A stretch of DNA of 64,000 bases from Chimonanthus salicifolius (lineage: Eukaryota > Streptophyta > Magnoliopsida > Laurales > Calycanthaceae), in NCBI GenBank assembly GCA_013350335.1, contig CM023540.1, positions 54,374,905 to 54,438,904 on the forward strand, written 5' to 3'. The notes below the pieces were generated by a model, which was not told the origin of the DNA, did not search any database, and saw only the letters and a list, made by a program, of their open reading frames with translations. Shown piece by piece: positions 29,349-56,925 of the stretch. The first letter of the stretch is position 1. Each line of letters opens with the position of its first letter. Both the position numbers and the translations under genes were made by a program.

Positions 29349-32300
29349 TGTAACGACCCACCCTTTTTCCATCTATAAAATCAAAGTGAATTTATTTTTT
29401 ATAGAAAAAGGATGGAGACGTCATGATGCGAGTCAAATCTGAGTTCCGAAAACTCGACCCTTAAGTGGCTCAACCTAACACATGCGTGGTATAAGCCCAC
29501 GGTTACATTTTGCACGTGCTAGCATAACCTATCGAATATTTAAGCATTTACATTGCATGACTAGCAAATCACGATTCTAGCAAAGACAAGGTAATTCCCA
29601 ACAATTATGAGTCAAAGACAAAACAAGAATATTAACTGTCCAAGGTCACAATATTACATTACCAAAAAAGAAGACCTTCTTACAATTCATATTATTCTCA
29701 AAAGATAACAATTTAACTAGGCTATTCAAGCTTCTTTTCGCATCCATCCTTTTGTCAGACTTGGCTATCACTAGGCCCAGCCTCTTTTCCTTTGTCATGA
29801 TCTGCATTAACATCTGAGGGGAAAAATGTACGGGCTTAATCAACTTGCCTAGTAGGAAATTCCGACCACAAAGTGCACTAGGTGTGAAATCTCATAATAA
29901 CATATATTAGAAAATCAAAGGTAATGATTAACACATGTTTCTCAAAATATGATAAGAGAATACAAATGTCTTATAACTCAGAAATCATAAAAATGATATG
30001 CCATGGGTGCCATGCATCAATGATATGCCCACCCATTTCCATGCATCAGATCATAACTATCACTTCAAATAATGATTCTCAATATTGGCCACTTATGTCC
30101 ACAACATTTGAGGCGGCGACCACAAGAGTGCTGTTACCCATCTACAAATTAACCGAGACTATCAGTGGAGTGTGGACTCCTCCCTCTGCACAGGGTTTCG
30201 GAACCTACCCCGGGGCTCTTTGGCCCAATTAATGCCGTAGGATTTATGCACAAGGACGGGGGCAAAGTCTAATATTTGACTTATTGTACAAGAGATCAAG
30301 CAAAGTCCAGACAGTTCATTCTTGGCTCGATACTACAAATCACTCTCATTCGAAACCAAACAAAGTTCGGACATTTCCTTATTGGCTTGCTAATGTCAAC
30401 CCTCCCATGCAACCATGCATGAGATAATGTGTGCAATCATGATGACAAAATCATAAATCAAATTATTTCTCATCAAAATTATTCCCATATACATAATAAA
30501 ATCATAATATCATAAATCCATATTTATGCTTTTGAAAGATATAACATATAATAAAATCATTCACCTCATTGTGCTTCAATAAAGTAGGAACTCCTACCTG
30601 ATCGAAAGTGATCAACCAAAGGAAAACTCAAACGTTCGTTCGAATGGCGTCGGAATTACCATCGATTCCTTTCGTCCATATACATGTTTTAAATCACAAT
30701 TTATAGATTATAAACACATAAAATCTTTGTCTAATCCGTGTAGGTCTAAACCAGACCTAAAGGTCTACTGTATAATTTTCAAGACCTAAAAAAAAATTCC
30801 ATTCATATTTGATTTTAACAACAGATACATTAACCTTAATAAATTGTTTCTATTTCAAGTCGACATATCTACACTATCGATACATCGCCGTTGGACACAG
30901 TCAACACATCGACCATCTCGATATGTCGACTAGGCTCTGTTTGTTTCAGTTCATATTTTCTAGTCCCTCTTTGGTCATATATGTATATATCAACATAGTC
31001 GATATATCCAATAGTTCGTACAGTCGATATGTCGAGTCTGTCAACATATCCTCCTGATTTGATTTATTAGTTTCTTAAATCGTCCTCTGCTTTTGAACTA
31101 TATGTATCGACCAAGTTGATACATATATTGGTGCATATATTCGATGTGTCGACATTCGTCGACAAGTCTGTCAGTATTAATAATTATTTTGTGTTCATAG
31201 GCCGATATATTGACTCCGTCGATACATCGTCCTTTTCATGTTTATGTCGGATCATCTTCAGGCCAACAAATCGACCTGGTTGATATATCGTTCTGAGATT
31301 AATTTATCACCTTTTTATTTCATCTCCGGTTCTACCATACTCAGACCGACACATCGACTATGTCGATGGGTCGTCCTGAGATCAGTTCATCGGCCATTCG
31401 TTCCATATTATATCTGTTGTACCTCAGGCCGGCATATCATTGTCGATAGGTTGTCCCGAGATTAGTTTGTCATTTGTACATTTCATTTTCATTTCGGTCA
31501 TATCATCGACATAGGTGATGTGTCGTCTTGGATTCCAGTTCCATACTTATCACTTTCTATTAGCTGAATATTGCCCCAGCCGACACATCGATAGAGTCGA
31601 CATGTCGACTGGTTCGAGTAAGAAGTCATAGACCCATCATCCATGGCTTCCTTTTACTTGTGTGTTCGTCATTCTTAGGTTATTTCTTTTCAATTCCAAT
31701 CATACAAGTTTTCAAGACAACCTAGTGGTATTGATTTCCTCAAAAACACCATAGATCTACCTACCTCGAAGGATTTGTAGGTGTGTTCGAATGGATGCAA
31801 TCTGATATCCCTTGTCTCCTTACTCTCCACCCTCCTTACTAGCTCGATTTCTCTTTCCCCTCTCTTGGTCTCTCCTTCCTTTCCCTGAACAGAGGAAGCC
31901 CGTGAGGAGGTGAAGAGGTTCTTGGTTGAGTTCAGAGCTAGAATGTGAGTGATAGGGTGCACTCGGATGAGTAAGAGGGGTGGTTAGGCATTTTGGTTCT
32001 TCTTTCCCTTTCACTGTTTTTCCTCTCATTTGCTTTCTTTCTTTTCTTATCTTTCCCTTCATTTTCTCTTCTTTTTATATTCATCTTTTGATTGCCCTAG
32101 ACTCTTAATTGAGTGATTGGAAAATGGAAGAGGCATTGTGAATACCCATGAATAGAAAAATGAAGAGTTTGGGCGGTGGTAGACAGAGCATCCGACCCAT
32201 TTGATTTTCTTTTCCCCGATACATCGTCCATGTCGATGTTTTCTTCTAACAACTTATACCTCGGATTTGGATATCAGTTTTCCCTGACACATCGATCTAG

Positions 32301-32490
32301 TCGATGCATCTTCTGGAAACATTCAACTTTGCCGACACATCGACCAAGTCGATGTATCGTCTAGGGGAAATTTAGTTTCCCTTTATTTATTTGAATAAAT
32401 ATTTACATTATTTGGACTAAAATCATATATTTTATTCATATGATAAAAAAAATTACATAAAATGAGGATTTAAAATTCCGGCTCCTTACA
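29349..32490 (-). mobile_element. E1: solo-LTR-like element with CGACACATCGA hairpin array
   Basis: 3,142 bp inserted in the E0 integrase with TSD TTAAC (29,344-29,348 and 32,491-32,495). The + strand left end is TGTAACGACCCACCC and the right end CTCCTTACA. Read on the minus strand it starts TGTAAGGAGCCGGAATTTT and ends like the other LTRs of this group. No gag/pol or primer site inside, so a solo LTR is most likely. It contains the group core (about 29,830-29,865) and a dispersed array of cgacacatcga/tcgatgtgtcg hairpins (30,858-31,612 and 32,215-32,361). Confidence 0.85.
30858..32361. repeat. E1 hairpin array (cgacacatcga type)
   Basis: About 13-14 imperfect copies of an inverted motif around CGAYAYATCGA...TCGATRTGTCG. 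They lie near 30,859, 30,904, 30,990, 31,106, 31,140, 31,202, 31,262, 31,347, 31,431, 31,500, 31,580, 32,216, 32,286 and 32,332. Spacing is irregular, about 35-90 bp, with one ~600-bp gap (31,613-32,214) holding a C/T-rich leader-like stretch. Confidence 0.8.
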
Positions 32491-32495
32491 TTAAC

Positions 32496-32878
32496 CCATT
32501 AAAGCTCCGTAGGAACTGCTCCACGCATTTGTTGACCACCTCAGTTTGACCATCTAACTACGGGTGGTAGGTGGAGACATATTCAATTTAGTGCCTTGAA
32601 GGTGAAAAAGTTCCTTCCAGAAAAGACTTTAGAAATATTGGGTCCCTGTCACTGACGATTGATTGGGGCATGCCATGGAGTTTGAACACATGGTCAAGGA
32701 AGACCCGTGCCACACCTGCCGTGGTAAAGGGATGTCCAAGTGCCACAAAATGTCCATACTTACTCAAGCGGTCAACCACAACCATGATGGTGCTTTTTCC
32801 GTATGAAATGGTAGGCCTTTGATAAAGTCCAATGAGATAGAGTACATGGTTCAGATGGAATGTCCAACTGTAACACCC
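32496..32878 (-). pseudogene. E0 integrase core, first part
   Basis: MVVVDRLSKYGHFVALGHPF carries the first catalytic Asp and IVSDRDPIF the second. YHP then a stop, followed by LDGQTEVVN, is the region just before the catalytic Glu. The piece is bounded by E2 (right) and E1 (left). Confidence 0.88.
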
Positions 32879-34077
32879 CGAATTTTCATCATTTATAATA
32901 TAATGGATTTGGTCTATTTTGAATTAAAAATTGATTGAATTTAAGATTAATGATTGAAATGGACCTTAGATGGGTAAGGAGTTGGGTCAATAACCCAATT
33001 AAGACCCAAAGGATCATGGATAGGATTTGATTGGGAAGTAATTGGATAAATGTAATTAAATGGGTCGATTACCCAACTGGGACTGAATGGGTCATAGATG
33101 AGCTGATTTTAAGGTAAATGGGTAAGGTTAATTTAATTGGGTCAACTATCCAATTAAGATCCAATGCGTTAAGTCCACCTCATCAAGTGAGGTGGCATAT
33201 AAGTGACATTGCAAGGATGGGACCCACGTGTCATGTGGTGACCATGTCACCACATGCATGATTGGCTAAGTCATGGTTGACTTGGTCAACCATGAATGAG
33301 TCCAAGTAAGTAAATAAGGCTTGAGTTGAGAGTATGAGTTAAGATGGAAGTTGAGGAGACTTCCATCTCAAGGTGAGTTGAGTGGGAATATGAGGAGTTT
33401 TCTATCTCAAGGGAAAGGAACCAAGGAAAAATGTGGGAAGACAAAGGATCTCCTTGGTTTTAACCAGGAGACACCTTGATTAGATAAAGCATTAAGGGAG
33501 GAGATGAAAGGGTGAACTCTTATACAAGAGACACAATCCAAGGGGCACACCCCACCCCTTGGCCGATCATTCTATTTTGTTTGTAACAAAGAGTTTTCTC
33601 CTCTCCTCTATCTCCATCTCTTTCACCTATACCTCTGAACTTAGAGCAAAGGAAGAAGAAGGAGTAAGGAAGGAAAAGACAGAGCAAAAGAAACGAAGGA
33701 GACGGGAAATAATGTATGTTTTAAGTTAGAACACAATATGGGATTAAAGGAAACCATACCTTGGCCATGGTATGGCCGAATCTATGGGTTCCAGATTGGT
33801 TGAAAGGACTGGCCAAATTATCATAGGGCCATGGAATTGGATATCCATTTGAAGAATGGATATGTGTTGGAAACAAAGTTGATGTCCTGAATCCAAGTTA
33901 TAAACCAAGGATTGAAAGAAATATGAAAAGACTCTAGCTTTGGCTAGAAGGTAGAGTAAACTCACTAAAAGTTATGTGAATGATATTATTTATGCCTAGA
34001 TAATATTAGGAGTGAATTCTATGAGGAAGGGTCGAAACATATAAGCAAACAAAAGAGACTGACTAACAGTGAACCGA

Positions 34078-34370
34078 CTGAATCTGGGATTCAGTCGACT
34101 GAACTGGTGTTGGCCGAAGACATATCTGGGAGTTTCAGCCTACTGAATCTTGTGATTCAGTCAACCGAACAGAGACGTAACAAATAAGTAAAAGGATCAG
34201 GTGTGTTTCAGCCGATTGAATCTAGGATTCAGTCGACTGAATGATTACTTATCAAACACGAAAACTGTTGGTTGAGGATTCAGTTGACTGAATCTATACT
34301 GGCCGAACACACAATTAATTTGATCCAAAGTCAGCCGACTGAATCTGTGATTCAGTTGACTAAAGAGGAT
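34078..34370. repeat. E2 hairpin array, left part (gattcagtcgactgaat type)
   Basis: Five copies of CTGAATC...GATTCAGTCGACTGAA-type hairpins near 34,078, 34,138, 34,207, 34,277 and 34,332, 55-70 bp apart. Two more follow E3 at about 44,717 and 44,792, so the array had at least seven members before E3 landed in it. Confidence 0.88.
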
Positions 34371-35193
34371 TGACTGTAACGCCCCGCCCTTTTTCACTCG
34401 CTTTCAAAAAATCAGAGTCTATTTTTTTTTTTAATAAAGAGCGAGAGAGAGCGGGACGTCACGACGCGAGCTAAGTCCGAGCTTCTAAAGCCCGACCCTT
34501 AACTGGCCAACCATACGTGTGCATGGATTAAGTCCACGAATATGGTTCACACGCAAAAGTTTAACTTGCGGATTACATCATAACTGCATAATTATAATAG
34601 AACCTAATTCTATTCCATTTTAGATAACAAAGTAATCCATGTCTTAACCAATGTCTTTCCATGGGGTTCGGCCATACAACATGGCCGAACCCTATGGTTC
34701 ATCATCTACCCTTTAAAATCACTTAGACCCATATAACTTCCTTAATACCTTTCCATGGGGTTCGGCCATACAACATGGCCGAACTCCTCTGGTTTCTTTC
34801 TTCGCTCCGACTTGTTCCTTGGATCTTTTCCTTCCATAGCTTCTTCTTCCTTCCTTCTTGATCCTTGTGAGAGGGTCGGTCTTAGGTTCTTGTGAGAGGG
34901 AGAGGATCTTGAGATGAAGCCTTAAGTCCTTCCTCCTTTGTCTTTGGGATAGGTTGGCCTTGTGTGAGAGGGAAAGAGTGAGATAAAAATATTCTAAGTG
35001 CCCCTTGTCTTGAGGTGTGGTTCGGCCAAGAGAGAGCTTGAGAGAGAGAGAGTCTAAGATGCAACCCCTTAGTCTTTTCTTGTTTAATGAAATCCAACCA
35101 AGGGTGGTGTCCTTTGGTGACACCCCTTGTAACTCCCAAGCTCCTTTACCTCCCTCCTTAATGGTCCATTTGGGGTGTTTCATCCATGAGATG

Positions 35194-38100
35194 TGTAACA
35201 CCCTGGATTTTCAAGTTATTTATATATATGAAAATTACCCATTTAATTTGTGAATTATTAGATATGGATTTTATATGGGTAAAATGTTGGGTCATTGCCC
35301 AATTAAGACCCAACGGTTGAGGAAATGGTTTCAATTTAAATTAAATGGGGTTGAATTAATTTAGTAATGCATTATGTCTAAAATTAAATAAAATATTGTG
35401 CATAGGCCGAACATTGGATTTGTATATCCAAGAAGGTGTTTAAAAAAAAATTAAATAAAGATTACATAGGCCGTGTATAGCGATTTCCATATCTATGTGA
35501 TATGCATAGGACCATTTAAAAGGGGTATTTCCTTGGTTAAGAGTGAAATTAAGGGATTACTAAATAAAGAAGTTGTCTTAAGATTAAAATTAGACATGCC
35601 TTGCCGTGTGGGAGTTATGCGCAATCCATGTAGTGTATCTCTTTAAAAAGAGTCCTTTCCTTGTTAGAAGAGGGGCGCATGGCAATTGCTATATCAACAC
35701 CTTCTAAGTTGGCATCAATTAGAAGTTGATAAAAGGAGAGACACAAGGGCGCACGGCAATAGGCAAGGGCTAAATTAAAGGGTCTTGGTACCTTCTAAAT
35801 TAGGACCCATTGCAAATGATAAAAAGGCAAACATAGGGGGCGCACGGCATTACACAAAATCAGCAAGGATTGACGCTGGTTTGCACATTAGCAAGAGGTG
35901 TTCTCAGCTTTGAGAAAGATCAAGAAGAAAGAGGAAAAGGCTAAAGAAGGAAAAGGATTGGAAGAGCAAGAACAAGCGAAGGAAAACCGGAGGAGTCGCG
36001 GAACCGGTAAGTGATTTGATATTTTGTTTAAAAATAAGGAACCATAGGGTTCGGCCATGTTGATGGCCGAACCCCATGGAAGGAAATTGGATGATCATGA
36101 TATTTAATTTTAATGGAAAGACATGGTTATTTTTATGGGTTGGAAACCATGTAAGGACTTTGGTAAATTTTAAGGGAAGTTTGGAGGATCAAAATCATAG
36201 TTATGGTTATAGTTTTAAAAGGGTTTTAATGGATGATTTTTGTGAAGATCCTTAGACCATGGGTTCGGCCATGGAGTATGGCCGAACCCCATAAATATTA
36301 TGGAATTATGTTCATATACTTAGAACATGGAAAATGATGGGAAAGTTTATTTATGATTAATTTTAAATGGATAGAAGGTTTGATGGTTTTAGATGCCATT
36401 GGATCATGAAAACCATGGAGGGTTATGATGTTTTGATTGCATTTGAAAGAGAATATTATGAACCATAGGGTTCGGCCATGGTGTATGGACAAACCCATGA
36501 AGGTGTATTGGTATTTTTAATGTATGTTAATTGATTAAAATGGAAGATGGAGATTAAATTAGAAAGTTTCTAATTATGGATTTTTGGATAAAAAAGGAAA
36601 GAACTTTGATTTATGGATCCAAGTATGGCAATTAATATAATTGGAAAGTTTACATCATAGGGTTCGGCCATGGTGTTTGGCTGAACCCCATGAATCAAGT
36701 TTTTGGTTCAATTGTGGATTTGTTATTACTAAATAAATTTAGAAGGAGGATGGAACCATGATATCATGGGTTCGGCTATGGGGTATGGCCGAACCCCATG
36801 AACCAATTTTTATGGGTCTTGAATAGACTTAATATGATTAAAGGAATGGAAGGTTTTATTTATGGTTCTATGGTTGTGAATCTTTGGTGAATCCATGTAA
36901 TTGATGTCTAAAATTATGGACCTATATTGTGGACCTAAAATTAAGGAGATGAAAGATCATGGGTTCGGCCATGATGTATGGCCAAACCCCATGAGATGGT
37001 TTGTGGATCAAAATGAACTTGGGTAATTGTTAATGAATGAGAGGATTGGTTATGGAATGTTAGCCATGAATGACAATATTGTAATTTAATTGGAGAAGAA
37101 CTATGGACCATGGGTTCGGCCATGTGGCATGGCTGAACCCCATGGAAAATTATTTGGTGGACTTGGGATTTTGATGTCATTGTTAATGGATCATTTATGG
37201 ATTGGTTATGGACTTAACATAGTGATTGATTAAATATTAATTGGAGGATACAAGTATGTTAGTGGATTATGGGTTATATTAGCCATGGATGGAAATGTTG
37301 TAAATAGGTGAAAATAATGGACATAGGGTTCGGCCATGGTGTATGGCCGAACCCCATGAACTATTTGTATGAATTATTTTGGAACATATGTCTTATGAAA
37401 ATAAGCAAGGTAAATGGCTATGGATATGTATAATGGCATTGTTGTAAATATGGTAAAAAATGAAAGACCATGGGTTCAGCGATGGTATATGGCCGAACCC
37501 CATTAGGAATGTTTTATGGACTTGGACTTTATGGTAAATCAAATGGGACATGGTTTTAATTGATTGATATATTATAGGGTAACGGGACCTCACAAGGTGT
37601 GTAAGATCATGACCGGTTACCAGACGGAAGTGCAAGGACACGTTAGTGGTCTTTGGTAGGATTCCACCTCTTTGAAACCATGGGTTTATGTACAATTGTT
37701 TTATCTTATTTTTGATGAAATTATGTTGTAAAGGAATATGTTTCAAATTGTGATTTTAAATGCTATGTTTATTATATAAAATAGCATGTGTTTCAAATGT
37801 GAGGTTTTAATGGTATGTTGATTATATAAATAACATGTGTTTCAAATGTGAGGTTTTAATGCTATGCTTATTATATAAAATAGCATGTGTTTCATTGGCA
37901 TCTCATGCATGGCATGGGGTGAAGGATATGTAACCGGAGGGGCCACACTCCGTCGGGGCGTCCGAAAAACCTATGTGGGATACCTTGATGGTGAGAATCC
38001 CATCAAGAAGAAACCGGAGCGGCCACACTCCATCAACTCATCCGAAAGATCTATGTGGGGGTACCTTGATGATGAGAATTCCATCAAGAGGATACATGTG

Positions 38101-38742
38101 TTTATGATGGGTGGGACTCATTGCATACTACACATGTCATGGCATTGTTTTTATATGGTTTTTGACATTATGATATTATTATATATGTTGTGTACTAACC
38201 ATATGTTAGCCCTAATTGGAATACCTACTGGGCGCGTTGTTCTAACGCCCTACTTCTACCCTAGTGGTTGATACAGGAAACGAGGGAAACGTTGAACACG
38301 AAAAGGGCCAAGCATAGGAGCTTGGATATGCGATTGGAATATATTTTATTTGAGATACTCATGTACTTGTATTTGAGTAACTAGACTTCGGACATGTAAT
38401 AATTTAGAAGATTGGCTATGGTTAGATGTTTACTTGGATAATTATGTTATGATAATGATGATTAAGGTTTTGACGTACTTTGCTATCTGAAAAAGAATAG
38501 AACTGGGTTCTATTATAATTCCGCATGTTATGATTTTATTCCGCATGTTTATAATGTTATGTGTGAACCGTTTCCATGGACTTAGTCCATGCACACATAG
38601 GGTTGGCCAGTTAAGGGTCGGACTTTAGAAGTTCGGACTTAGCTCGAGTCGTGACGTCCCGCTCTTGCTCACTTATGTTATAAAAAAAAATTTGACTATG
38701 ATTTTCGGAAGGGAAAGCGAGTGAAAAAGGGCAGGCGTTACA
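35194..38742 (+). mobile_element. E4: solo-LTR-like element with ggttcggccat hairpin array
   Basis: 3,549 bp in the left LTR of E3, TSD AGATG (35,189-35,193 and 38,743-38,747). Start TGTAACACCCTGGATTTTC, end GGGCAGGCGTTACA. No coding region. Visible parts in order: leader; GGAGGAGTCGCGGAACCG followed by GTAAGTG (36,007); nine hairpins (36,042-37,504); a duplicated ~85-bp block with CCGGAGGCCACACTCC-like sequence (37,932-38,100); core GGGCGCGTTG...TAACGCCC (38,222-38,260); acceptor-like GATACAG|GAAA (38,276); GCCAAGCATAGGAGCTTGG; and a tail that is inverted relative to the E3 head. Confidence 0.9.
36042..37504. repeat. E4 hairpin array (ggttcggccat type, nine copies)
   Basis: Nine inverted repeats, arms GGGTTCGGCCAT and ATGGCCGAACCCC with a 3-7-bp loop. 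Starts are near 36,042, 36,257, 36,463, 36,656, 36,765, 36,958, 37,108, 37,322 and 37,468; spacing about 110-215 bp. Sequence between hairpins is AT-rich and not repeated in an obvious way. Confidence 0.95.
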
Positions 38743-39561
38743 AGATGAAACACCCATGTCCCAACGGTGTAGTCTTGACTTAGATTGTGTATCCACCACA
38801 AACCGTCCCCTCTCATTCATGATACATTTTGGGGGTTTCATCCATGAAATGAAACTCCCATGTCCCAACGGTGTAGCCTTGAGTTGGTTTGTGTAACCTC
38901 CACAAAACCGCCTCCTCTCCATTAATGGCCCATTTGGGGGTTTCATCCATAAGATGAAACTCCCATGTCCAACGTGTAGCCTTGTATAGGCTTGTGTAAC
39001 AACACAAAAACGGTCCACCTCCCATTGATGTTCCATTTGGGGGTTTCATCCATGAGATGAAACTCCCATTCCAACATGTATGCCTTGGTTTGGTTTTTGA
39101 AACAACACCACCACCTTCATCTTCACATTTCACTCACTCTTTAATTCGACTCACCACTTTAATTTAACTCATTTCAATCCCTTGATTCCATTTCCAATTT
39201 AATTCAGCCCTACTTAATTTAAACTTGAACTCACTTGGTGGTCAATCAAGTCAACGACGACCCATTGGGTCCCAATTGGACATTTTGACCCAATTAACAA
39301 ATTTTGACCCAATTAACAATCTTAACCCAATTGAATACACCTTACCCATTTATTTCAATTGAAACCATATCCACAATCCGTTGGGTCTTAATTGGGCAAT
39401 TGATCCAACACCTTACCCATCTAAGGTCCTTATCATTTAATTCACAAATTAAATGGGCAAATTTCATATATATTGATAACTTGAAAATCCGGGGTGTTAC
39501 AGTACAACCCTCTTTTTAAAATTTTCATCCCGAAAATCGAGCGAAATAGGGTTTCAAACGA

Positions 39562-40758
39562 TTACATAAATAGCTCAGGGTGAGCTGTTCTCATTTCCGA
39601 TTCAAGTTCCCAAGTGGCTTCCTCATTACCATGTCGATCCCATACCACCTTGATGAACTGAATCGCTCGGTTTCGTAATACCCTTTGCTCTGTCTCCACC
39701 ACTCTAACCAGCTTTTCGATGTATGTTATGTCGCTTTGCACCTCTATGTTTTGTACATTCAGTACATGTGAGGGATCGGAATTGTACTTCCTCAATATAG
39801 ATATATGAAACAAATCGTGCAAGGTTGACAACTGTGAAGGAAGTGCCAATTGATAAGCCACCTCCCCCATCCTCCTTATGATTGAAAACGGTCCCACATA
39901 CCTAGACGACATTTTCCCTTTCTTTCCAAATCTCATGTGTCCCTTTCGTGGTGAGACTTTCAAGAACACTATATCCCCCACCTTAAATTCAAGGAACCTC
40001 CTCCTCTTGTCAGTGTAGCTCTTCTGACGACTTTGTGCAGCCAATAGGTGCTGCCGTATCAACTGTATTTGAGCCGTAGTCTATGCAACTAACTCGAGTC
40101 CAATCAGTGCAGGCTCACCGGCTTCTGTCTAGCACACGGGTGATCTATATGGTCTACCATATAAAGCCTCCAATGGAGCCATCTGGAGGCTTGCCTGGTA
40201 ACTGTTGTTGTATGAGAATTCTACCAGTGACAAGTGATCCTCCCATCCACCCTTGAAGTCTAGCATACATGCTCTCAGCATATCCTCCAATGTTTGTGTT
40301 GTCCTCTCCGACTGTCCATCAGTCTGTGGATGGAATGCTGTACTAGTCAGTAGATCTGTTCCCATGGCCGACTGCATGCTCTGCCACACTCTTTTGAGTC
40401 CATGCCACCACTAGTGTCTCTTTAGGCCGTGATACATCTTGGTGCTGCCTGGAGGAATGGAGAGTTTGGTCTGGTGTGCCTCGATCAACAACTCTCTTCT
40501 GCAGTTATTAGGCACATATGTCATTCCTCGGAATACAAGACCCTGTCTTGGTCGTAACTCCCATTCCGGTATGACTTCACCAGTAGACATCTTGGCCCAT
40601 ATCTCCTCCACTTCCGGATCTATCCGCTGCTCCTGTTCAATCTTGGAGACCATGTTGGACTGTATGATTAGATTATACTTACTCCCATGGTTACTGATAT
40701 ATAGATTGAACTCTCGAATAGTATTTTCCATACGTACTCCCTCAATACATTCATTCAC
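39562..40758 (-). pseudogene. E3 integrase remnant with chromodomain-like tail
   Basis: From the 5' side: 40,411-40,758 (RNase H-integrase linker, QGLVFRGMTYVPNNCRRELL and PPGSTKMYHGLKRH), then a join to WQSMQSAMGTDLLTSTAFHP and QTDGQSERTTQTLEDMLRA (catalytic Glu region, 40,129-40,389). Next come LEFKVGDIVFLKVSPRKG and, at the end, LRNRAIQFIKVVWDRHGNEE with ATWELESEM, a chromodomain-like tail of the Tekay/Del type. The zinc finger and the first two catalytic Asps of integrase are deleted at the join (about 40,390-40,410). A stop lies near 40,080. Confidence 0.88.
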
Positions 40759-40789
40759 CTATTTTCTGTGTGAGGTTAGTGATGTCCTT

Positions 40790-42004
40790 GCTCCTCATTG
40801 AAATTTGTTAGTGAGGTAGCCTGCCAATGCAAACCTATGCTCAAGGCTTTCGCTGATTCCATTTTAACTACGTTTCTAACTGCACTCTCTTGGAACTCCA
40901 TCGGCTAACTACAGAGTCAGCTGATCAGTCTAACTCGCAGTCGTCCATAGCTTCCCATTCGAATTTCACTAGACTCTTAACTTTTCCATTAAGTACATCT
41001 CCAAAAGTAGGCATATCTTCATTTGCACATAAGTTACTATGTGACTAACACATTTTGTTCAAAACTTCCACGATACCGAGTATTTCTCAACACTTACTTT
41101 CCAATCCACTATGGGAATCATCATCCACGGTTATACACATCCATCCCTGGTATCACTCCATCAGTGAGTATCAACTATCCAAGGTTAATAACCATCCATG
41201 AATATAATCCCCTTCTGGGTATAATCCATTCATGGGCATAATCCATCGTTGGGCATAATTAATCCAGGGCACATCATCTACCCTGAGATATTCCATCCGT
41301 ATGAACAACACTCGAATGAATCACTATGTGACTGTGGCAACAATATCAAATCATAAATATACCCCGACCCCTAGCAAGACTTAGGGCCCATGACTTACTA
41401 AGCGGAAGACCCACGTCCAACGTGATCAAGTCTACCTCGCCCTGCATCCCTTCACCCCAAGGGTGATTTAGTCAAGCTCTAAGGCGGTCGGACCGCGTCT
41501 AACGAAGCTAGCACCACCCCCCCGGGGTAAAATAGTACCTAGCTCTGCTCATCAATACACATCAAATGTGCGAAATAGCCGTGAGAGCGCCCTCCAGCCC
41601 ATAGCATGTGAGGGGTCCACTCCTCAACGGCAACCCTACTGAACCAAGTCTCCATATCTCATATCAAGGCTCCCACAGTCTCATGGCTACTCTAAGCCTT
41701 AATCTATATACTTATCTCATCAATATCACGTGAGGGACGCACCCATACCATGTCTCAATCATCAATATCACGTGAGGGACGCACCTATACCACGTCTCAA
41801 TGTAATCAAGTGACCTCGTCACCTACATCTCAGTGCCAAAGTTCTCATAAACTCTTAAGTTTGCATACTTTAAAAATCATTCCAACTTACATCACAATAC
41901 AAAGGTTGGTAGGGTTAGGAAAAACCCTTCAAAGAACCAGAACGTACGACCAACCTTTACAAAATCTTTCCCTTTTCCCCGACATTTTCTTACCATTTCT
42001 TAGC
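40790..42004. other. E3 interior without recognised coding
   Basis: About 1.2 kb between the integrase remnant and the cysteine-rich frame. Repeated GGGTATAATCCATCC-like and TCACGTGAGGGACGCACC (twice, 41,727 and 41,770) stretches are seen, and no RT or protease motif. Confidence 0.5.
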
Positions 42005-42328
42005 CTAACCTTCCGTAGAAGACCCTGCATCATCATAACAATCGAAGAAGTTGTTAGGGCATGTCGTCGACGTGTGCCCCAACACTCCACAAGTCAGACG
42101 GTGTATTATTCCCGGTCCTTCAATGTAAGGACAGCTAGTCCTCTCCTTCCCGTGCTCGTGAAGTCCACAAACAGGGCAAATAACCTCAAGGGGGTAGGGG
42201 CAGAAAGTACATTTGTGCTCTTCCTGGTTGCACAACTCACACATATACCCGGGCGCTATCTCCCCTATAGATTCTCCTATCATTGGGATATCTCCCATAT
42301 ACTCTTCTGGAAAAGGGGCTAGATTCAC
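42005..42328 (-). pseudogene. E3 cysteine-rich open frame (gag-like zinc knuckles?)
   Basis: 107 codons. It contains three successive Cys/His clusters: CELCNQEEHKCTFC, CPVCGLHEHGKERTSC and LTCGVLGHTSTTCP. The last resembles a CCHC knuckle with its first Cys replaced. An acidic start (PFPEEYMGD) precedes them. The position, about 680 bp after the primer site, fits gag, but the capsid part is missing. Function is inferred only. Confidence 0.55.
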
Positions 42329-42989
42329 CTCGACATCCTCGGGGATACCTGTACGACTACGTTAACTTCCACAGCGTGGTCTGGCCTGCTGGAGTTGTTG
42401 GAAGAAGAAATCAGATTGATAGGACAGCTAGGGGTTCCCCTGTCCCACAACTCTGTATACTCTATGTTGCTCGACATATCTGCTATCATAACAACAGAAG
42501 CATATTAATGACAACCGCATTTCTAATCAAACTAATCTTTGTTTTGGGGAATTTCCCTATGTATCACATAATGTCTCTTGTTTGGGGAACTTTCCTATGT
42601 ATCATATAATGTCTCTTGTTTGGGGAAATTGCCAAATAAACATCTTGTGTTTCTTGTCCTTGGGGAAATTGCCAAATCAGCACTCTTTGTATTTCCTTTG
42701 TTTTTGGGGAAAATTCCTAAGTATCTTTTGTTTGTTTCTCAATTTGGGTATATCGGGAAAGTGTCTCATAATTTGCTATGTTTGATAAATCCAGCTATTT
42801 TGACTGTACTTCCTTTGCTATCATTCCTTGTTGTTCTCAGATTGAATGTTTCAGTCTGAGTCTAACGAAGTGAATTAATCCGGCCTCCGTACAGCGGACT
42901 TCGAAGAGTTGGTCAGTTGGGATTCCTATCTGTCAGTGAGACATGAAACCGTCTTAATCTTACTTTGAAAGATTCAACCTTCCCGTTTC

Positions 42990-43003
42990 GCTCTGATACC
43001 AAC
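42990..43003 (-). other. E3 primer binding site (tRNA-Met)
   Basis: Minus strand GTTGGTATCAGAGC directly follows the 5' LTR; TGGTATCAGAGC is the classic initiator tRNA-Met complement of plant retrotransposons. Confidence 0.9.
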
Positions 43004-44687
43004 TGTAACGCCCCGCCCTTTTTCACTCGCTTTCCGACAATCAGAGTCTATTTTTTTTTAATAAAGAGTGAGAGAGAGCGGGACGTCACGATGCGAGGTA
43101 AGTTCGAGCTTCTAAAACCCAACCCTTAACTGGCCAACCATACGTGTGCATGGACTAAGTCCACGAATACGGTTCACACGCAATAGTTTAACTTGCGGAT
43201 TACATCATAACTGCAGAATTATAATAGAACCTAATTCTATTCCATTTTAGATAGCAAAGTAATCCATGTCTTAACAAATGTCTTTCCATAGGGTTCGGCT
43301 ATACAACATGGCCGAAGCCTATGGTTCATCATCTACCTTTTAAATCACTTAGACCCATATAACTTCCTTAATACCTTTCCATGGGGTTCGGCCATACAAC
43401 ATGGCCGAACCCTATGGTTCATCATTGAGTCTTTAGCCATAATAAAATCAGGGTTCGGCCATGCAATGGCTGAACCATGTCCTTGACCCTCTTTTATTAT
43501 TTATGAAGTTTAGCGAGCACTTACCGATTCCGCTACTCCTCCGGTTTCTTTCTTCGCTCCGACTTGTTCCTTGGAACTTTTCCTTCCTTAGCCTCTTCTT
43601 CCTTCCTTCTTGATCCTTGTGAGATGGTCGGCCTTAGGTTCTTGTGAGAGGGAGAGGATCTTGAGATGAAGCCTTAAGTCCTTCCTCCTTTGTCTTTGGG
43701 ATAGGTCGGCCTTGTGTGAGAGGGAGAGAGTGAGATTAAAATATTCTAAGTGCCCCTTGTCTTGAGGTGTGGTTCGGCCAAGAGAGAGCTTGAGAGAGAG
43801 AGTCTAAGATGCAACCCCTTAGTCTTTTCTTGTTTAATGAAATTCAGCCAAGGGTGGTTTCCTTTGGTGACACCCCTTGTAACTCCCAAGCTCTTTTACC
43901 TCCTTCCTTAATGGTCCATTTGGGGGTTTCATCCATGAAATGAAACACCCATGTCCCAACGGTGTAGTCTTGACTTAGATTGTGTATCCTTCACAAACCG
44001 TCCCCTCTCATTCATGATACATTTTGGGGGTTTCATCCATGAAATGAAACTCCCCTGTCCCAACGGTGTAACCTTGAGTTGGTTTGTGTAACCTCCACAA
44101 AACCGCCACCTCTCCATTAATGGCCCATTTGGGGGTTTCATCCATAAGATGAAACTCCCATGTCCAACGTGTAGCCTTGTGTAGGCTTGTGTAACAACAC
44201 AAAAACGGTCCACCTCCCATTGATGTTCCATTTGGGGGTTTCATCCATGAGATGAAACTCCCATTCCAACGTGTATGCCTTGGTTTGGTTTTTGAAACAA
44301 CAACAACACCTTCATCTTCACATTTCACTCACTCTTTAATTCAACGCACCACTTTAATTTAACTCATTTGAAATCAACTCAATCCCTTGATTCCATTTTC
44401 ACTTTAATTCAGCCCTACTTAATTTAAACTTGAACTCACTTGGTGGTTAATCAAGTCAACGGCGACCTATTGGGTCCCAATTGGGCATTTTGACCCAATT
44501 AACAATCTTGACCCAATTGAATACACCTTACCCATTTATTTCAATTAAAACTATATCCACAATCCGTTGGGTCTTAATTGGGCAATTGACCCAACAACTT
44601 ACCCATCTAAGGTCTTTATCATTTAATTCACAAATAAAATGGGCAAATTTCATATATATTGATAACTTGAAAATCCGGGGTGTTACA
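43004..44687 (-). repeat. E3 5' LTR (right copy, intact)
   Basis: 1,684 bp. Minus-strand start TGTAACACCCCGGATTTTC, end GGGCGGGGCGTTACA. It contains three ggttcggccat hairpins (about 43,287, 43,378, 43,451), four gtttcat...atgaaac hairpins (about 43,920, 44,024, 44,129, 44,231) and a conserved GGTAAGTG (minus strand, 43,518-43,525). It lacks the core and acceptor region seen in E4-E6. Confidence 0.9.
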
Positions 44688-46266
44688 TTGACCAGGAATA
44701 CAAAGGGTTTGACTCAGAGTCAGCAGACTGAATCTATGATTTAACAGACTGAAAGGTTACGAGTCAGGGTTAAAACAGTTTTGAGTTGGATTTCAGCCGA
44801 CTGAATATTGTATTCAGTCGACTGAATTATAAAGTTTAAATTTTGTATAATTTTCCAAATGTTTCTGTCTGTCTGGAAGGATGTAAGGGATGATTTAAAT
44901 TAAATGGATAATTAAATTGATTATTGTATACGATTGAATTCATTAAGGTAAAAAGATTTGCACAACTGAGTGTGCGATTGGTTTTGACGTAATCGTTGTA
45001 CGTCACGTCACAAAACAACAAGGATATTATACTGGACCTTGGTAGGATTCCTAGCTTATTAAAATACATGTGGATCTTATATATACTTGTGTTACTGATT
45101 TGTATTTCCAAACATGATAACTTACTTTGATTATTGAAATGTGTATGATTATGAACTGTTTCCAATGGTAACATGTGATTTGAAATGAGATGGCATTATT
45201 GCATTCATGATCTCATGCATGGCATGGGAGGGAGCACATAGGACAACAAGCTAAGTTATGAGCTGTCCGGACATTGCTTGGGGCTTGAAAACTAGCTTGA
45301 AAGAAGTTATGTGAACCATTGGTATTTTGGCTTTGTCCAGGATTGCTAGATAGGGGTACGTTGTAATTTGGGCCAAAGAGCTCAGGGGTAACCAGTCCAA
45401 AAACCCTGCACAGAGGGAGGAGTCTACGCTCCATCGGTAATTCAGATTAACATACGTGGGGAGGTATAACAGTGACCCAGTGGTGCCGTCACAAAATACT
45501 GCAGAAGTAAATGGCCAAGGGAACACCTTAATATGGCAATAATTTATCAAGGAAAGCATTGATATGATATATGATGTTTGGATATGGAATTGGGTAAGAG
45601 GTCATTGGCATATGACACCTATGACATGACACATACATTAGCCTGATTTGGATATGATTATCATGCGCTGTTTTTAGTTATATGATATGTTTTATAGTTT
45701 TGGATTGATGTACTTACCTTGATTTTTATATTAATCCTATGTGTACATAACCCTATTTGGAATTCCTACGGGCGCGTTGACTAACGCCCTACTTCTACCT
45801 TATAGATGATGGAACAGGAAATGACAAGGACATGGGACATGATGGGAGCCAAGCATAGGAGCTTGGGCAGATTTATGTTTAGTTTATTTAGTTGGATTTT
45901 TGGAAAGATGTATTGGGAGAACAGTTATGTTGGTTTGTAATAACTTAGAGTTTATTTTGTTGTGGTTTGATGATATTTAAACTTCAGTTAATTTTATGTG
46001 ATTAACTTCCTTCCTTAATATTGATGTCATGTATATGGATGAAATCTTATCCATATGTTTATTCCGCAATTATTTGTGAGCGTGTGAAATACCTTAGTGG
46101 TCTTAGCCCACACACACGCATTGGTAGCCAGTTAAGGGTCGGGTTTTGGGAACCCGAACTTAGCTCGCGTTGTGACGTTTCCCAGCTCTCTCTCACTCTT
46201 TATTATTAAAAAAAAAAATATACTCTGATTTTCGACGAGTGAAAGAGGGCGGGGCGTTACACCAAC

Positions 46267-49534: not shown

Positions 49535-52500
49535 TGTAACGCCCCGCCCTTTCCGAGAATACAGAGTCTAATTTTTTTTTTTTTAAGTAATAATGAAACA
49601 TCGAAAGAGAGCGGGCGGCGTCACGACGCGAGTTAAGTTCAGACTACCTAAGTCTGAATCTTAACTGGCCACCCATGTGTACATGGACTAGACCATGATA
49701 ATGAACACACATGGAACTAACATCAACTTGCGGAATAGTATAAGTTAACTGCGGAATAATACGAAAAGATAGCCAGTACCAGTCTCAAATAATAATTACA
49801 TAAATCAATCATACATTGTCAATATCCTAAGCAAACCATAGCAAGTGACTACTTTATTACATGTCCATAATAAAGTATCAAATAAACAGCAAATAGAAAT
49901 TCATTCCCGCATTCAAGCACTTAGGCTCAGCTCCCCTCTCGGTCAATGACCTTTTCTTTTCCTTTACTTGTACCTGCAATCTCCTCTGAGGATAGAATTA
50001 GGGCGTTAGATCAACACGCCCAGTAGGTTCCCGAATCAGGGCTACCACATGTTAGCATATAAAATATGCATATACATATCATAATACATGATCATCAAAA
50101 CAGGTAAAACAATGCTATGAAGTATGCACATGCAATGAGCATCCCCCATCATGTACATTTATAGCCATCACTTGACGTGCCTTGCACCGTCAAGGTAAAT
50201 TACAATACACTTTCATCTCTTCATCATTGACTGATTCATATCACGTATGAGTCCTCCTGGCGGGACTCTCATCGCCTAAGGAGACCAATGTGACTATGAT
50301 CATCATGTTACTCCTCTTGGCGTGACTTGCACCACCGAGGCAGGACGTAACCCATAAATTGCAACACTGTAGAACCTCATTCATAATCCCATGTCTATGC
50401 ATGAGATGGCAATGCCTGTATGCCATTTGTTAATGCATAATATATCATTTGAAACACATAAAATAAAACAAGAGTATCATAAGAAAACTGGGGTAAAACC
50501 ATGGTTACAAGTAGGTAGGAAACCTACTGAAGAATCACTTCAGCGTCCGTTCTTTCTTAGGCTTTATCCGGTCACTGTTCGTAGTCGTGCACCGTCAGAG
50601 ATCCGTCACCTTATTCACATAAATCATGGACCAACTTTAATCCCTTACTTTATTTGATTCCCATTTTTGAGTCTGAGTCCACAAATACCAACTCATGGTT
50701 GTGACCCTTATTTACAAACATGCCATTGCTACCAATACCTTGATTAAACTCTACAACCTTAACCGCAACTTTAACGTGGTTCAATCATGTTTTGGACGAC
50801 CAAAACAGCAAACATAATTCCATCTTTGATCACATACACATCCATAAAATGACCCATGAAAACAGTCCATGGGGTTCGGCCATACTCATGGCCGAACCCT
50901 TATGGTTCTTTGCTCAATAATGTCCTTTATTTAAATACTAATTGGCTCTACCCCCTTAGCCATGTTAACCCATAGTTTAGCCATCCTATGGCCAACCCAA
51001 AACAGCAAGCTTATTTCATTTAACATACATAAGAAAACCCATAAATCTTGGTCCATTCATCCCAAAACTAGCCCCATGGGGTTCGGCCATGCACATGGCC
51101 GAACCCAATGGTTCTCTTGATCTGATTGATCCCTCACTTTCCATGGTTATTCATGATTTAATCAGTGCTTACCCAACCATGAATTACACATGGTTCAGCT
51201 ACATAACCAACCACCAAAACAGTCATTTAAACTTCACCAAAACCCATTACTTACTTACATGGGGTTCGGCCATCCAAGGTGGCCGAACCCTATGTCCATG
51301 TTTTGATCTTTCACACATGCTTTAGGCATTATTTAAACATGCAATATCAGTATCATATTACTGCCTTTAAACCTCTTAGAAACCATCTAATTAAATTCAT
51401 CCAAACAGCCCATAAAAGTCCATGGTTTCCATGTTTCCCAACATGAAAACCAACACTCTTTTACATGGGGTTCGGCCCTCCATGGTGGTCGAACCCAATG
51501 GTTATGTTTACTGTTTTTAAACCTCAAATAATCATGTAATAACAGTATATTATTATCAGGTTTTTGCCTTTCAAACAAACATCCAAAAATTAGCCCAATT
51601 TCATAGGGTTCGGCCATGCTCATTGGCCGAACACCATAACCTTTGGTTTTGAACATTTAACCCTTTATCTTGGGTCTGAAACCAACATCCAAATCCATGT
51701 TTTAACCTCCTTAAAACATGCATTTTAAATCCAACAATAACATCTAATATCAGTCCCAAATTATATGGTTTTAATTTCCAAAAACTATAAAAAACAACCA
51801 CTTGTTTCCATGGGATTCGGCCATGCAAAGTGGCCGAACCCAATGGTCCATTTCCATCTTTTAATCCACTGATTTAGACCATATAAACTTCAGCCTTTTC
51901 TGACATTCAGATATAGGTTTATAATCCTTTTAATAACATGTATTTAATTCTCAAATAAAAACCCAAAAATCAGTCTATAAACCCATGGTTTTCATGTTTC
52001 CAAAACATGAAAACCAAGCAATCTTTCACATGGGGTTCGGCCCTTCATGATGGCCGAACCCAATGGTCATCTTCACCATTTCTAAATCTCCATTAAATCA
52101 AGGTTAAACATTGGTGTATTCGGCCATGATCATGGCCCAATACACACCCATTTTATTAATCCAAAAGTCCATGAAACACTTACCAAATTCCAAGCTCTTC
52201 CTATTGTCTTTGCTCATTGTCTTCTTCCTTTTATTTCTTCCTTTCTTCCTTAATTCCTTGCTGGTTTAAGCTTGAATATTTGGTACCAAAAACCTCTGCT
52301 GTTCCAGCCAAGAACACCAATTGGAGAGAGGGAGAAAGAGATGGGAAAACTTGGGTTTGCAATGACAAAAGTCGGCTAACCTTGGTGTTCATTGCTTTTG
52401 TATTTCAGCCATCATTTCTCATCAATTCATGCACAAAACGATGGGTATTGGTGCCATCCAAGGCACCCCTTGGTACCTACCCATGCAGCCATTCAGATTT

Positions 52501-53271
52501 CCATGTAACTCACCTCAAACCCATCATTTGCATTCATGATTCAACATGGAACTCACCAAAACAAGTCCCCAACGTGTGGGACTTGTTTTGGTTGGTTTAA
52601 GACCAGCCAACCTCTTCAAATTTCCACTTAGCTCACTGAGTTACAGTCCCATGGATTTCCATTTTGACTCACCCAACTCAAGATCATTTAGATTTCCATC
52701 TCAACTCACCCAACTCACATACTTAATGCATTTCATTTAACGCACATGAGTTGGCTCACTACTTGATTTAATTTCAACTCACTTCAGTCCCACTCAACTG
52801 ATTTGACTCGTGTTTTAGCTACCTTGAGGGTCCACACGGTCAACCATAGTCAACTCGACCCGTTGGGTCCACTTTTAGCTCCTTGACCCGTTTTTGACTC
52901 CATGACCCAATTATGGTATTTTGGTCATTTGTAAATGGTTTTCACATATGGATCAAGCCTACCCATTTCTTCTCCACTTGATTTCCAATCAAATAGACTT
53001 AACCCCATTTAATTTAAATTCAAAAAACGGTCAAATAATCCAGTAAGACCCGATGGGTCCCATTTGGGCCCTTTGACCCATTTAGCCATTTTTGTCCCAA
53101 ATGATGAAAATTACCCATCCAATCAAGCTTAACATTTATAATGTGCTCATATGATTTTAATTTGAGCAATGGACCTCACTATTTCCTTATTTGTCATCAC
53201 AAAATAATTAATTTAATAACTCAGGGGCATTTTCGTAATTTTCCACTTCATTGAGAAACTGAGGTGTTACA
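49535..53271 (-). mobile_element. E5: solo-LTR-like element with ggttcggccat hairpin array
   Basis: 3,737 bp in the E7 interior. + strand left end TGTAACGCCCCGCCC, right end GAGGTGTTACA. Flanks ATATG and ATAAG form an imperfect 5-bp TSD. No gag/pol. On the minus strand the order matches E4/E6: GGTAAGTG donor-like site (52,177-52,184), hairpins, core (49,994-50,030) and acceptor-like GCAG (about 49,974). The intervals between hairpins differ in sequence from E4 and E6, so it is another subfamily. Confidence 0.85.
50867..52148. repeat. E5 hairpin array (ggttcggccat type, eight copies)
   Basis: Hairpins start near 50,867, 51,074, 51,258, 51,463, 51,602, 51,808, 52,028 and 52,112. The first seven share GGTTCGGCC...GGCCGAACC arms with 5-10-bp loops. 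The last has changed arms (TGTATTCGGCCATG/CATGGCCCAATACA) that have nevertheless largely co-varied. Confidence 0.92.
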
Positions 53272-56006: not shown

Positions 56007-56606
56007 TGTTAATGCCCCAGCTTTGCCAAGTCCCTATGTCTGTCAATTCCATGACTCGGGAAGAAACACTTGCTAGAAGCTTGAAGACTCAAGGTGATCG
56101 AGATTGAAGATCATGCTCCACCGGATTAAATATAACACCCCGGATTTTCAAGATATCAATTTACATGAATTTTGTCCATTTAAATTATGAATTAATGGAC
56201 ATGGACCTTAGATGGGTAAGGTGTTGGGCAATGGCCCAATTAAGACCCAACGGTTATGGAATGAGTGTTCAATGTAGGGTAAATGGATAAGATACATTTA
56301 ATTGGGTCAAGGTGGTTATTTGGGTCAAAATGCCCAAAAGGGACCCAATGGGTCATGGTTGACTTGGTTGACCACCAAGTGAGTCCAAGCTTAACTTGGT
56401 TGGGGCTGATTTGAGTTGGAAATGGAATCAAATGGTTGAGTTGAATTAAATGGTAGAGTTGAATTAAATGTTTGAGTTGAATTAATTGGATGAGTTGAGT
56501 TAATTGAGTTAAATATATTTGAATTAAATTTATTTGAAAAGTGAATTGGATGGAAAGGTTTTGGGGGTTACATATTTCAAATTCAACAATGGCTACACGT
56601 TGGATG

Positions 56607-56925
56607 CATGGGAGGTCTATCTCATGCATGAAACTCCAAGATGAATAATGAATGGGAGGTGGCGTTTCTGTGAGAGTTATACAAGGGGTTCACACTTGGA
56701 GGCGGGAGTTTCATCTCATGGATGAAATCCCCAAATGAGAACTAAAGGGGAGATGGACGGTTTTGTGGTCTAAGGCAAGACAAAACCGTTGGCTACATGG
56801 GAGTTTCATCTCATGGATGAAACCCCCAAGATGGAAGATGAATGAGGTTTGTGGAGGTTACACAAGGCACCCCATTGCAGCCGTTGGAGCCTTGGGAGTT
56901 TCATCTCATGGATGAAACCCCCCCA
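56607..56925. repeat. E6 gtttcat...atgaaac hairpin set
   Basis: Four hairpins of the form GGGAGTTTCATC...GATGAAACCCCC (about 56,607, 56,701, 56,801, 56,891) at ~95-bp spacing. The E3 LTR carries the same class (43,920-44,265 and 38,743-39,065). Confidence 0.88.

Follow-up and report, generated by a model that had tools for sequence, protein, structure and literature searches.

Background

The closest precedent for the palindrome arrays reported here is the set of repeated motifs (RM) of Sireviruses, which are Ty1/copia retroelements. RM have been described in 13 elements, mostly as a different palindrome in each, with 8-32 copies apiece (PMC2829016). Many RM lie in the long terminal repeat (LTR), upstream of the TATA box. 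They are CpG-rich, most have a CGG-CCG core, and they were called Sirevirus-specific among the elements compared. Their role is regulatory by proposal and their reader is not known. The arrays considered here are in LTRs of Chimonanthus salicifolius, in a window of 64,000 nt, i.e., the whole stretch of DNA that was analyzed (assembly GCA_013350335.1, contig CM023540.1, positions 54,374,905 to 54,438,904, forward strand). These arrays appear to work like RM, but their carrier is not a Sirevirus. As with RM, the dyads are element-specific and located in the LTR, CpG is concentrated in the motif, and the GTC alphabet described below also has the CGG-CCG core (TTCGGCC/GGCCGAA). The differences are that the carrier is gypsy/chromovirus-like, that the main arrays are in a downstream intron-like stretch, that the CAG, CGA and GGAGTTTCAT motifs are without CGG-CCG, and that a switch of alphabet can be traced on one backbone.

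VANDALs are DNA transposons. Their target motifs are short, subfamily-specific, arrayed in non-coding parts including introns, and spread by tandem repeats (PMC5735166, PMC10398659). In contrast to the LTR arrays, the VANC reader is encoded by the element and its binding has been shown, and VANDAL motifs have the same orientation and are not dyads. Retrosat2 of rice, of the Tekay/Del lineage (PMC6317226), has an LTR of >3.2 kb, an R region of 2023 bp with tandem repeats, and 10-bp inverted LTR ends (PMC3485330). It resembles the LTRs here in all of these features, but the main text of PMC3485330 contains none of the terms palindrom, hairpin and intron. BARE, a Ty1/copia element, has spliced and unspliced RNAs with different fates (PMC3735527), but its splicing is at the end of gag, outside the LTR, and palindrome arrays are not mentioned in the parts of that paper examined. 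Among the open-licence papers listed by literature searches, judged by title and opening of the abstract, none deals with palindrome arrays in gypsy LTRs or with an intron inside a plant LTR. The superfamily, the position of the arrays and the traced replacement set the present case apart.

Palindrome alphabets of the nested LTRs

Three near-palindrome alphabets are present in the window: GGTTCGGCCAT (GTC) in units A, B, E and F, GACTGAATC (CAG) in E2, and CGACACATCGA (CGA) in E1. They are nearly exclusive when half-sites are counted (motif plus reverse complement, ≤2 mismatches). For GGTTCGGCCAT the half-site counts are 9+9 (B), 8+8 (E) and 9+10 (F), with 3+4 and 2+3 for the 5' LTR (A5) and 3' LTR (A3) of A, respectively. 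They drop to 0+2 in both E1 and E2, which have another alphabet, and the 29 kb to the left of the region have 0+5. Half-sites of GATTCAGTCGAC number 6+10 in E2 and 0 or 1 per strand elsewhere. Those of CGACACATCGA number 7+11 in E1, 0+1 in E and 0 in the other five LTRs, with 2+1 in the left 29 kb and 3+0 in one copia-type LTR. An earlier note on this DNA, made for positions 29349..46261, had proposed different hairpin alphabets on related LTRs, and the three unrelated alphabets bear this out.

The "elements" of that note are LTRs of 1.6-3.7 kb that belong to one gypsy, chromovirus-like lineage and are nested in one another, so that its segmentation into separate elements has to be given up. 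They begin and end with TGTAACRCCCC..GGGGYGTTACA, except that F begins with TA rather than TG, and a 5-bp target site duplication (TSD) flanks five of the six window units (E1, E2, A, B and F; none was found for E). Solo LTR B is within the 3' LTR of A, and A is within LTR E2. The note gives no coordinates for single elements; whichever of them it meant by the stretch ending at 46261, this is the rear half of E2, with the E2 motif and not GGTTCGGCCAT. LTRs E and F are outside the range of the earlier note. The features are as follows.

29349..32490, minus strand: LTR E1, 3142 bp, CGA alphabet, 8 hairpins (TSD TTAAC, LTR ends)
30861..31607, minus strand: main CGA array of E1, 6 hairpins of 11-5-11 geometry, 3' of a donor-like GTAGGT near 31767
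32285..32359, minus strand: two upstream CGA hairpins of E1, LTR positions 132-206, outside the intron-like stretch
32869..34374, plus strand: first part of LTR E2, CAG alphabet (TSD CCAAC)
33758..33782, plus strand: decayed GTC palindrome in E2, 44 nt past a donor-like GTATGT, orthologous to the first hairpin of L051/L057
34061..34368, plus strand: CAG array of E2, first part
34375..44687, minus strand: retroelement A, inserted in E2 (TSD TTGAC)
34375..35193, minus strand: 3' LTR of A (A3), distal part
35194..38742, plus strand: solo LTR B inside the 3' LTR of A (TSD AGATG)
36048..37499, plus strand: GTC array of B, 9 hairpins, between a donor-like GTAAGT (36007) and an acceptor-like CTAAC..CTAG (38242-38264)
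38743..39501, minus strand: 3' LTR of A (A3), proximal part, with a GGAGTTTCAT tandem array
39502-43003, minus strand: internal region of A (3.5 kb), with an integrase C-terminal stretch
42990..43001, minus strand: primer-binding-site-like TGGTATCAGAGC of A, recognized by sequence and presumably a match to tRNA-Met
43004..44687, minus strand: 5' LTR of A (A5), 1684 bp, internally shortened, with GTC hairpins (43292-43476) and a GGAGTTTCAT array (43923-44261)
44693..46261, plus strand: second part of LTR E2, beyond nested element A (TSD CCAAC)
44711..44830, plus strand: CAG array of E2, second part
49535..53271, minus strand: LTR E, 3737 bp, with a GTC array at 50873-52142 (no TSD found)
56131..59533, plus strand: LTR F, with a GGAGTTTCAT array at 56611-56921 and a GTC array at 57373-58406 (TSD TTAAA)
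57326 and 59040-59062, plus strand: donor-like and acceptor-like sites of LTR F

Palindromes scoring ≥8 number 3-9 per array, compared with means of 0.05-0.16 in 100 Markov resamples. The density of near-palindromes scoring ≥9 is 2-4 per kb for B, E, F, the LTRs of A and the half of E2 that precedes the insertion. It falls to 0.64 per kb for E1 and for the other half of E2, and to 0.37 per kb for the leftmost 29 kb. When every unit except this last was resampled ten times from a Markov model, the means stayed at 0-0.3 per unit. LTRs B, E and F have 9 GTC hairpins each (with 4-5 mismatches in two of those in E and one in F) and A5 has 3. E2 has five CAG hairpins with ≤2 mismatches and two with 4. 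The GTC hairpins mostly have 11-nt arms, with a 5-nt loop in 153 of 195 (32 LTRs), and the CGA hairpins likewise (a 5-nt loop in 39 of 44, four loci). The CAG unit consists of two 14-bp palindromes at a distance of 21-22 bp. A second motif, GGAGTTTCAT, forms four palindromes each in A5 and F, in a separate upstream array with a tandem unit of ~103 bp in A and ~95 bp in F (range about 95-105 bp). GTC copies per LTR are 8-11 in B, E, F, L025, L026, L028, L033, L044 and others (numbered loci are LTRs fetched from the genome), and 1-7 in many more. Most units are LTRs without an element. Single-copy palindromes (e.g., CCACCTCATCAAGTGAGGTGG and GGTTGACTTGGTCAACC) recur in the upstream part of the LTR, at 33174-33368 of the window and in L027, L051 and L056.

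Replacement of an alphabet on a common backbone

The LTRs were compared by BLAST with the hairpins masked and by pairwise MAFFT alignment. Judged from these alignments, backbone similarity extends past the termini. For A5, B and F the alignable sequence, 78-85% identical, amounts to 150-350 bp at the 5' end and to 258-925 bp past the array; E2, E and E1 align in fewer blocks. E1 aligns only within blocks of its last 1.2 kb, at 65-77% to E2, B, F and A5 of the window, with one 35-nt block at 86%; no E1 block aligns to E at the same threshold, and E1 and E2 have only four blocks in common, in the last 1.1 kb of E1 (67-77%). For E1, the common termini, core and tail described in the earlier note are an overstatement. 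One 3' backbone block (e.g., 38606-38640) has a small stem whose sides seem to co-change among copies (GGACTT..AAGTTC, GGGCTT..AAGCTC).

A tree of the region 3' of the arrays was made with 44 rows, consisting of 42 of the 46 window and fetched LTRs plus L064 and L066; A5, L035, L040 and L058 were left out, as were L063 and L065. The CAG bearers form one clade (100/98), nested among GTC bearers. Its sister is L057, which has one GTC hairpin (100/96). Next outward are L027, L051, L052 and L056, all GTC (99/96), and then CGA (100/100), also one clade, although L064 and L066 (and L063 and L065) were chosen by CGA hairpins and CGA monophyly rests on this chosen sample. The remaining 33 rows are 30 GTC and 3 with none of the alphabets. 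The labels require 7 changes, compared with a shuffled mean of 10.9, and 0 of 200 shuffles were as low. L063, with 13 CGA hairpins, is collinear with L066 at 62-70%.

A first tree, made from the last 620 bp with E1 as the sole CGA row and L038 mislabelled, gave no significant label clustering, with 10 changes compared with a shuffled mean of 10.8 (29 of 200 as low). It too grouped E2, L038 and L041 inside a clade with GTC bearers (100/100). The idea that motifs cluster by family holds on the main tree and not on the first one. The simplest reading of the main tree is that GTC is the old state and that there were two replacements, to CAG and to CGA. The replacement to CGA is less secure because the CGA loci were chosen by motif. 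The motif appears constant across old subfamilies and to have been swapped at least once, probably twice.

The switch to CAG can be followed in detail. E2 and L057 are collinear on either side of the array, at positions 218-1009 with 130-986 (67%) and 1700-3075 with 1531-2875 (78%). Between these flanks there are CAG dyads in E2, and a GTC hairpin and short GACTGA repeats in L057. At the place of the first hairpin, E2 has a relic, ACCTTGGCCATGGTATGGCCGAATC, with the same GGAAACCATA..TTCC flanks that the GTC hairpin has in L051. The relic is decayed, and kin of E2 have a better-preserved palindrome at the same place. GACTGA/TCAGTC words occur at 1.1-4.9 per kb in all 8 members of the E2 clade and its GTC sisters; in 38 other LTRs the mean is 0.24 per kb, with a maximum of 1.39 that overlaps the range of the E2 clade. 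L067, whose backbone is E2-like, combines a single intact CAG pair with two decayed GTC-like hairpins in its E2-like part. The E2-like L070 has six CAG pairs in 72-bp steps and two more. The relic, the GACTGA-bearing GTC kin, L067 and L070 together argue that the new dyad coexists with the old one and expands in tandem while the old one decays. Read in this way from sequence comparison, the switch of CAG for GTC is coexistence, then replacement. Turnover of variable repeats at a common position, which the earlier note had raised, agrees with these collinear flanks, the relic and the clustering of labels on the main tree.

Genome-wide abundance and a second family with CAG

Searches of the 852.6-Mb genome gave 144,184 sites for the GTC hairpin (≤2 mismatches; reversed control 0), 3,188 for the CAG core (≤1 mismatch; reversed control 1) and 2,366 for CGA (≤2 mismatches; reversed control 0). 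A backbone block near the LTR 3' end (≤3 mismatches) gave 18,898 + 18,821 = 37,719 matches, with 8 + 14 = 22 in controls. Forty stretches were taken around the first of 100 listed exact backbone matches, in order along one contig with some neighbours skipped; they were picked regardless of hairpins, yet are not random over the genome. GTC is present in 34 (31 with ≥2 hairpins, 3 with one), CAG in two (L038 and L041) and no alphabet in four. Three of these four (L043, L045 and L049) have close GTC kin and the fourth, L058, is a long branch.

A fourth alphabet, GCCGATAC, considered for L038 and L041, was dropped as it sits in a stretch foreign to the LTR, and L038 was then labelled CAG. Both loci have the same foreign stretch before the CAG array, with GCCGATAC..GTATCGGC palindromes and a copia-like CACCGACCCCTCGGTG, and the two may have been copied from a single locus or a single recombined LTR. 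In L065, near position 2125, a GTC-bearing F-like LTR begins within a CGA-bearing E1-like LTR. In public genome contigs the GTC hairpin was found at 12 loci that are bacterial or archaeal by title, with one palindrome each, and these were taken as chance. Viral contigs gave no matches for the GTC hairpin or the acceptor block described below; two matches for the CAG word, with one stretch each inspected, were judged not to be LTR arrays.

Of four loci selected for their CAG core, L068 and L069 represent a second family, which may resemble copia LTRs. They match each other at 81% over 314 bp. With the motif masked they have no convincing homology to the E2 backbone (best E 0.018 to E2-type LTRs, 0.005 to L057). 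Their CAG spacings are 22 and 51-54 bp (with one gap of 316), similar to the 21-22 and 50-52 bp in E2 kin (44 and 73 occur once each in E2). No other observation points as strongly to a reader common to unrelated elements as this recurrence of CAG, with similar spacing, in a family that cannot be aligned, and a shared, i.e., host, reader is argued on this basis. That each family has its own palindrome proves too strong a claim, since GTC is common to lineages with non-alignable spacers and CAG to two unalignable families. The same sharing speaks against private self-recognition, another suggestion of the earlier note, and for a shared reader.

Conservation of the arms

With hairpins masked, 0 of the 1082 nt of array spacers in B align to F, compared with 925 of the 1235 nt 3' of the B array (~78%). 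The GTC arms are nearly constant in lineages with such non-alignable spacers. In 195 GTC hairpins of 32 LTRs (6 of 201 were left out as the small stem of the backbone tail), the commonest base makes up 84-99% at each core position. A residual repeat unit is seen in some hairpin flanks, therefore the arrays are probably old tandem arrays with decayed spacers. Arms are more alike than spacers in 17 of 21 LTR pairs aligned by MAFFT. Among pairs with an identity <0.97 outside the array the excess is found in 16 of 17, the exception being L036-L032; in one of these, the poorly aligned E2-L041, arms and spacers are practically tied (0.478 vs 0.472). In gap-poor pairs the identities of arms, spacers and outside sequence are 0.874/0.695/0.758 (F-L059), 0.901/0.757/0.775 (L024-L028) and 0.898/0.821/0.782 (L027-L051). 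No arm excess is seen in 3 of the 4 pairs that are >0.97 identical outside the array, which is what conservation in source lineages with neutral decay of the copies would produce.

These properties, together with the abundance of the sites against near-empty reversed controls, the prevailing 5-nt loop and the CAG dyads of the second family, suggest that each dyad is a sequence-specific site at which a trans-acting, dyad-binding factor reads the array as DNA. The factor would more probably come from the host than from the element. This account comes close to an even chance. The factor would drive or shelter transcription from the LTRs of a large chromovirus-like gypsy lineage, as proposed for the palindromic RM of Sireviruses. 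Arrays would grow by tandem duplication, after which spacers would diverge and arms be kept in lineages that still transpose. Occasionally a second dyad would arise in the same stretch, coexist with the old one and replace it. A protein reader is a reasonable inference, and we likewise infer its binding, its action on DNA, its host origin and the intron status discussed below.

Several observations weigh against dyad sites read by a host factor. The main arrays are 3' of the presumed transcription start, whereas in Sireviruses the motifs precede the TATA box. Arm identity may be inflated in gappy pairs, where MAFFT is able to match hairpins that are not orthologous, and in E1-L064 (0.839/0.762/0.896) the arms are less alike than the outside sequence. 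The outer stem covaries within hairpins among the 195 GTC hairpins. At positions -4, -5, -6 and -1 the observed pairing was reached by 0 of 500 within-LTR reshuffles, and at -3 and -2 by 66 and 232 of 500. This pairing goes beyond the need of half-sites alone. Within the core, changes on both sides that preserve the pair are rare, yet somewhat exceed expectation at position 2 (4 compared with 0.8) and position 5 (6 compared with 2.2). Helical phasing was rejected as a general rule (p about 0.07 for GTC and about 0.16 for CGA). The CAG spacings are phased with p about 1e-11, but they are not independent because they come from the ~72-bp tandem unit. Lastly, L068 and L069 may have acquired the CAG array by exchange, with decay of the spacers since.

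Selection on the stem or correction of palindromes by template switching could each give the outer-stem covariation. The second of these belongs to an explanation without a reader, in which tandem duplication and template switching in palindromes spread and perfect quasi-palindromes, and alphabets drift. Covariation is an expected output of such correction, and clear tandem units are present (~103 bp in A, ~95 bp in F, 72 bp in L070, and repeats in L027). However, it does not sit well with GTC arms that stay nearly constant where spacers cannot be aligned, or with the same CAG and similar spacing in an unalignable family, and the arm excess vanishes in 3 of the 4 near-identical pairs, which argues against a constant mutational bias. 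This explanation is unlikely.

Position of the arrays in an intron-like stretch

In A5, B, E and F the first hairpin follows a donor-like GTAAGT by 41-48 nt. In E1 a GTAGGT is 160 nt before the first downstream hairpin, and in E2 a GTATGT is far upstream of the CAG array. The sequence before the donor-like site is purine-rich in most window LTRs. An acceptor-like block, CTAAC..CCCTA(C/A)TTCTA..AG, is downstream of the array in B, E, E2 and F, and a different one, CCCCTCAG, in E1. A5 (43004-44687) keeps the donor-like site and three GTC hairpins, and the acceptor block was not found in it; no donor pattern was recognized in A3.

Splice sites were analyzed in the 38 window and fetched LTRs with ≥3 hairpins. 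The acceptor block was recognized in 33, and 212 of their 213 hairpins precede it. A further 31 hairpins, in the five LTRs with no recognized block, cannot be placed by this test. With a strict pattern, 13 of the 38 have a donor no more than 80 nt ahead of the first hairpin, compared with 1.4% of control windows; with a looser one, 19 of 38 have a donor within 180 nt, compared with 15%. The distance to the hairpin is 41-53 nt in 17 of these 19, and 99 and 131 in the other two. In half of the 38 no donor was found at the expected place by either pattern. The array stretch looks like an intron in the LTR, as judged from these signals. The motifs are not confined to it, because there are upstream copies in E1 and GGAGTTTCAT arrays in A and F.

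An intron of this kind could strip the hairpins from spliced mRNA and leave them in unspliced genomic RNA, where they would be a sorting label for packaging, dimerization or export. In its favour, B, E, E2 and F have in succession a purine-rich stretch with a GT donor, the array, and a branch-like CTAAC with AG; nearly all placeable hairpins precede the acceptor block and donors are enriched over control windows. Outer stems keep their pairing and two core positions have some compensation. BARE maintains separate RNA pools (PMC3735527). A genome-wide search for LTRs with an exact spliced junction gave 0 matches (search counts are lower bounds, and both exon ends would be detectable after splicing in 14 of the 46 LTRs in hand), as expected if spliced RNA is not copied back, but equally expected if nothing is spliced. 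Mismatches in the GTC hairpins are G.T in 55 cases, A.C in 82 and other in 83 (p 0.026 against a G.T excess). Because G.T does not exceed A.C there is no sign of pairing in sense RNA. Predicted cognate pairing is uneven in the sense strand and is better in the antisense strand in B. Copies are also found upstream of the donor (E1), and the same CAG with similar spacing in an unalignable family is unexpected of a private label. Covariation as proof of an RNA hairpin was not reached, in that the core hardly varies and the outer stem covaries. An RNA label is improbable on balance.

Base composition

Of the CpG dinucleotides in 26 GTC LTRs, 300 fall within hairpins (6,654 nt) and 49 within spacers (21,430 nt), and the sequence outside the arrays (62,601 nt) has 1,453. 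Changes in the arms are foremost G-to-A and C-to-T. Such a concentration of CpG, and changes like those of decaying methylated sites, would fit an epigenetic role in which the dyads are anti-silencing sites, like VANC target motifs, or sources of double-stranded RNA for host small RNAs, with turnover by an arms race. VANDAL targets are likewise family-specific, arrayed, fast evolving and partly intronic (PMC5735166), and in maize, small RNAs are drawn to Sirevirus regions with a strong predicted structure (as related in PMC10760457). However, CpG in E1 is not limited to hairpins (21 vs 20 in spacers), a pure small-RNA source should be lost rather than conserved, element A is largely non-coding, and VANC motifs are reported in one orientation and not as dyads. 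An epigenetic role of this kind seems decidedly improbable.

The GTC spacers are also C-poor on the LTR sense strand, with a mean of 7.6% compared with 15.5% outside (G is 23.2% in both). These are the same 26 LTRs, i.e., the window arrays at 36048-37499, 50873-52142 and 57373-58406 and 23 fetched LTRs. The bias is not found in E1 (16.2%) and is weak in E2 (12.9%).

The carrier lineage and neighbouring sequences

The sole part identified in the interior of A is the integrase end, SH3_Tf2-1 (Pfam); the remaining window units have no coding part, and no reverse transcriptase of this lineage was identified in the window. The integrase end has gypsy/chromodomain relatives, at ≤61% identity, and nearly all of the named ones are from plants. 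Among the matches listed, 12 of 120 relatives have a chromodomain (PF00385); Pfam gives SH3_Tf2-1 alone for the window protein.

Positions 1224-11304 of the window contain pieces of a plant LINE-like element with zf-RVT, RNase-H-like and reverse transcriptase domains. Two LTRs nested nearby, at 46690-48215 and 59539-61313, begin with TGTTAGTG and are presumably of copia type. Each has five half-sites of the CACCGACCCCTCGGTG kind (≤2 mismatches, one orientation), reminiscent of Sirevirus motifs.

Significance

A motif that is constant yet swappable hints at a sequence-specific address that some factor may read. A further form of the reading as host-read dyad sites, possible but doubtful, is that the arrays are an exchangeable address, with alphabets that can be swapped on each backbone by way of coexistence and replacement, are read by the host and for that reason are common to unrelated families down to the spacing. 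Lying in an LTR intron, the address would be present in chromatin and in unspliced RNA and stripped from translated RNA. If a host factor reads the arrays, it would touch a large share of the genome (~37,700 backbone blocks and >140,000 GTC sites). The switch traced on a constant backbone makes the role of palindromic LTR motifs, and the driver of their turnover, testable.

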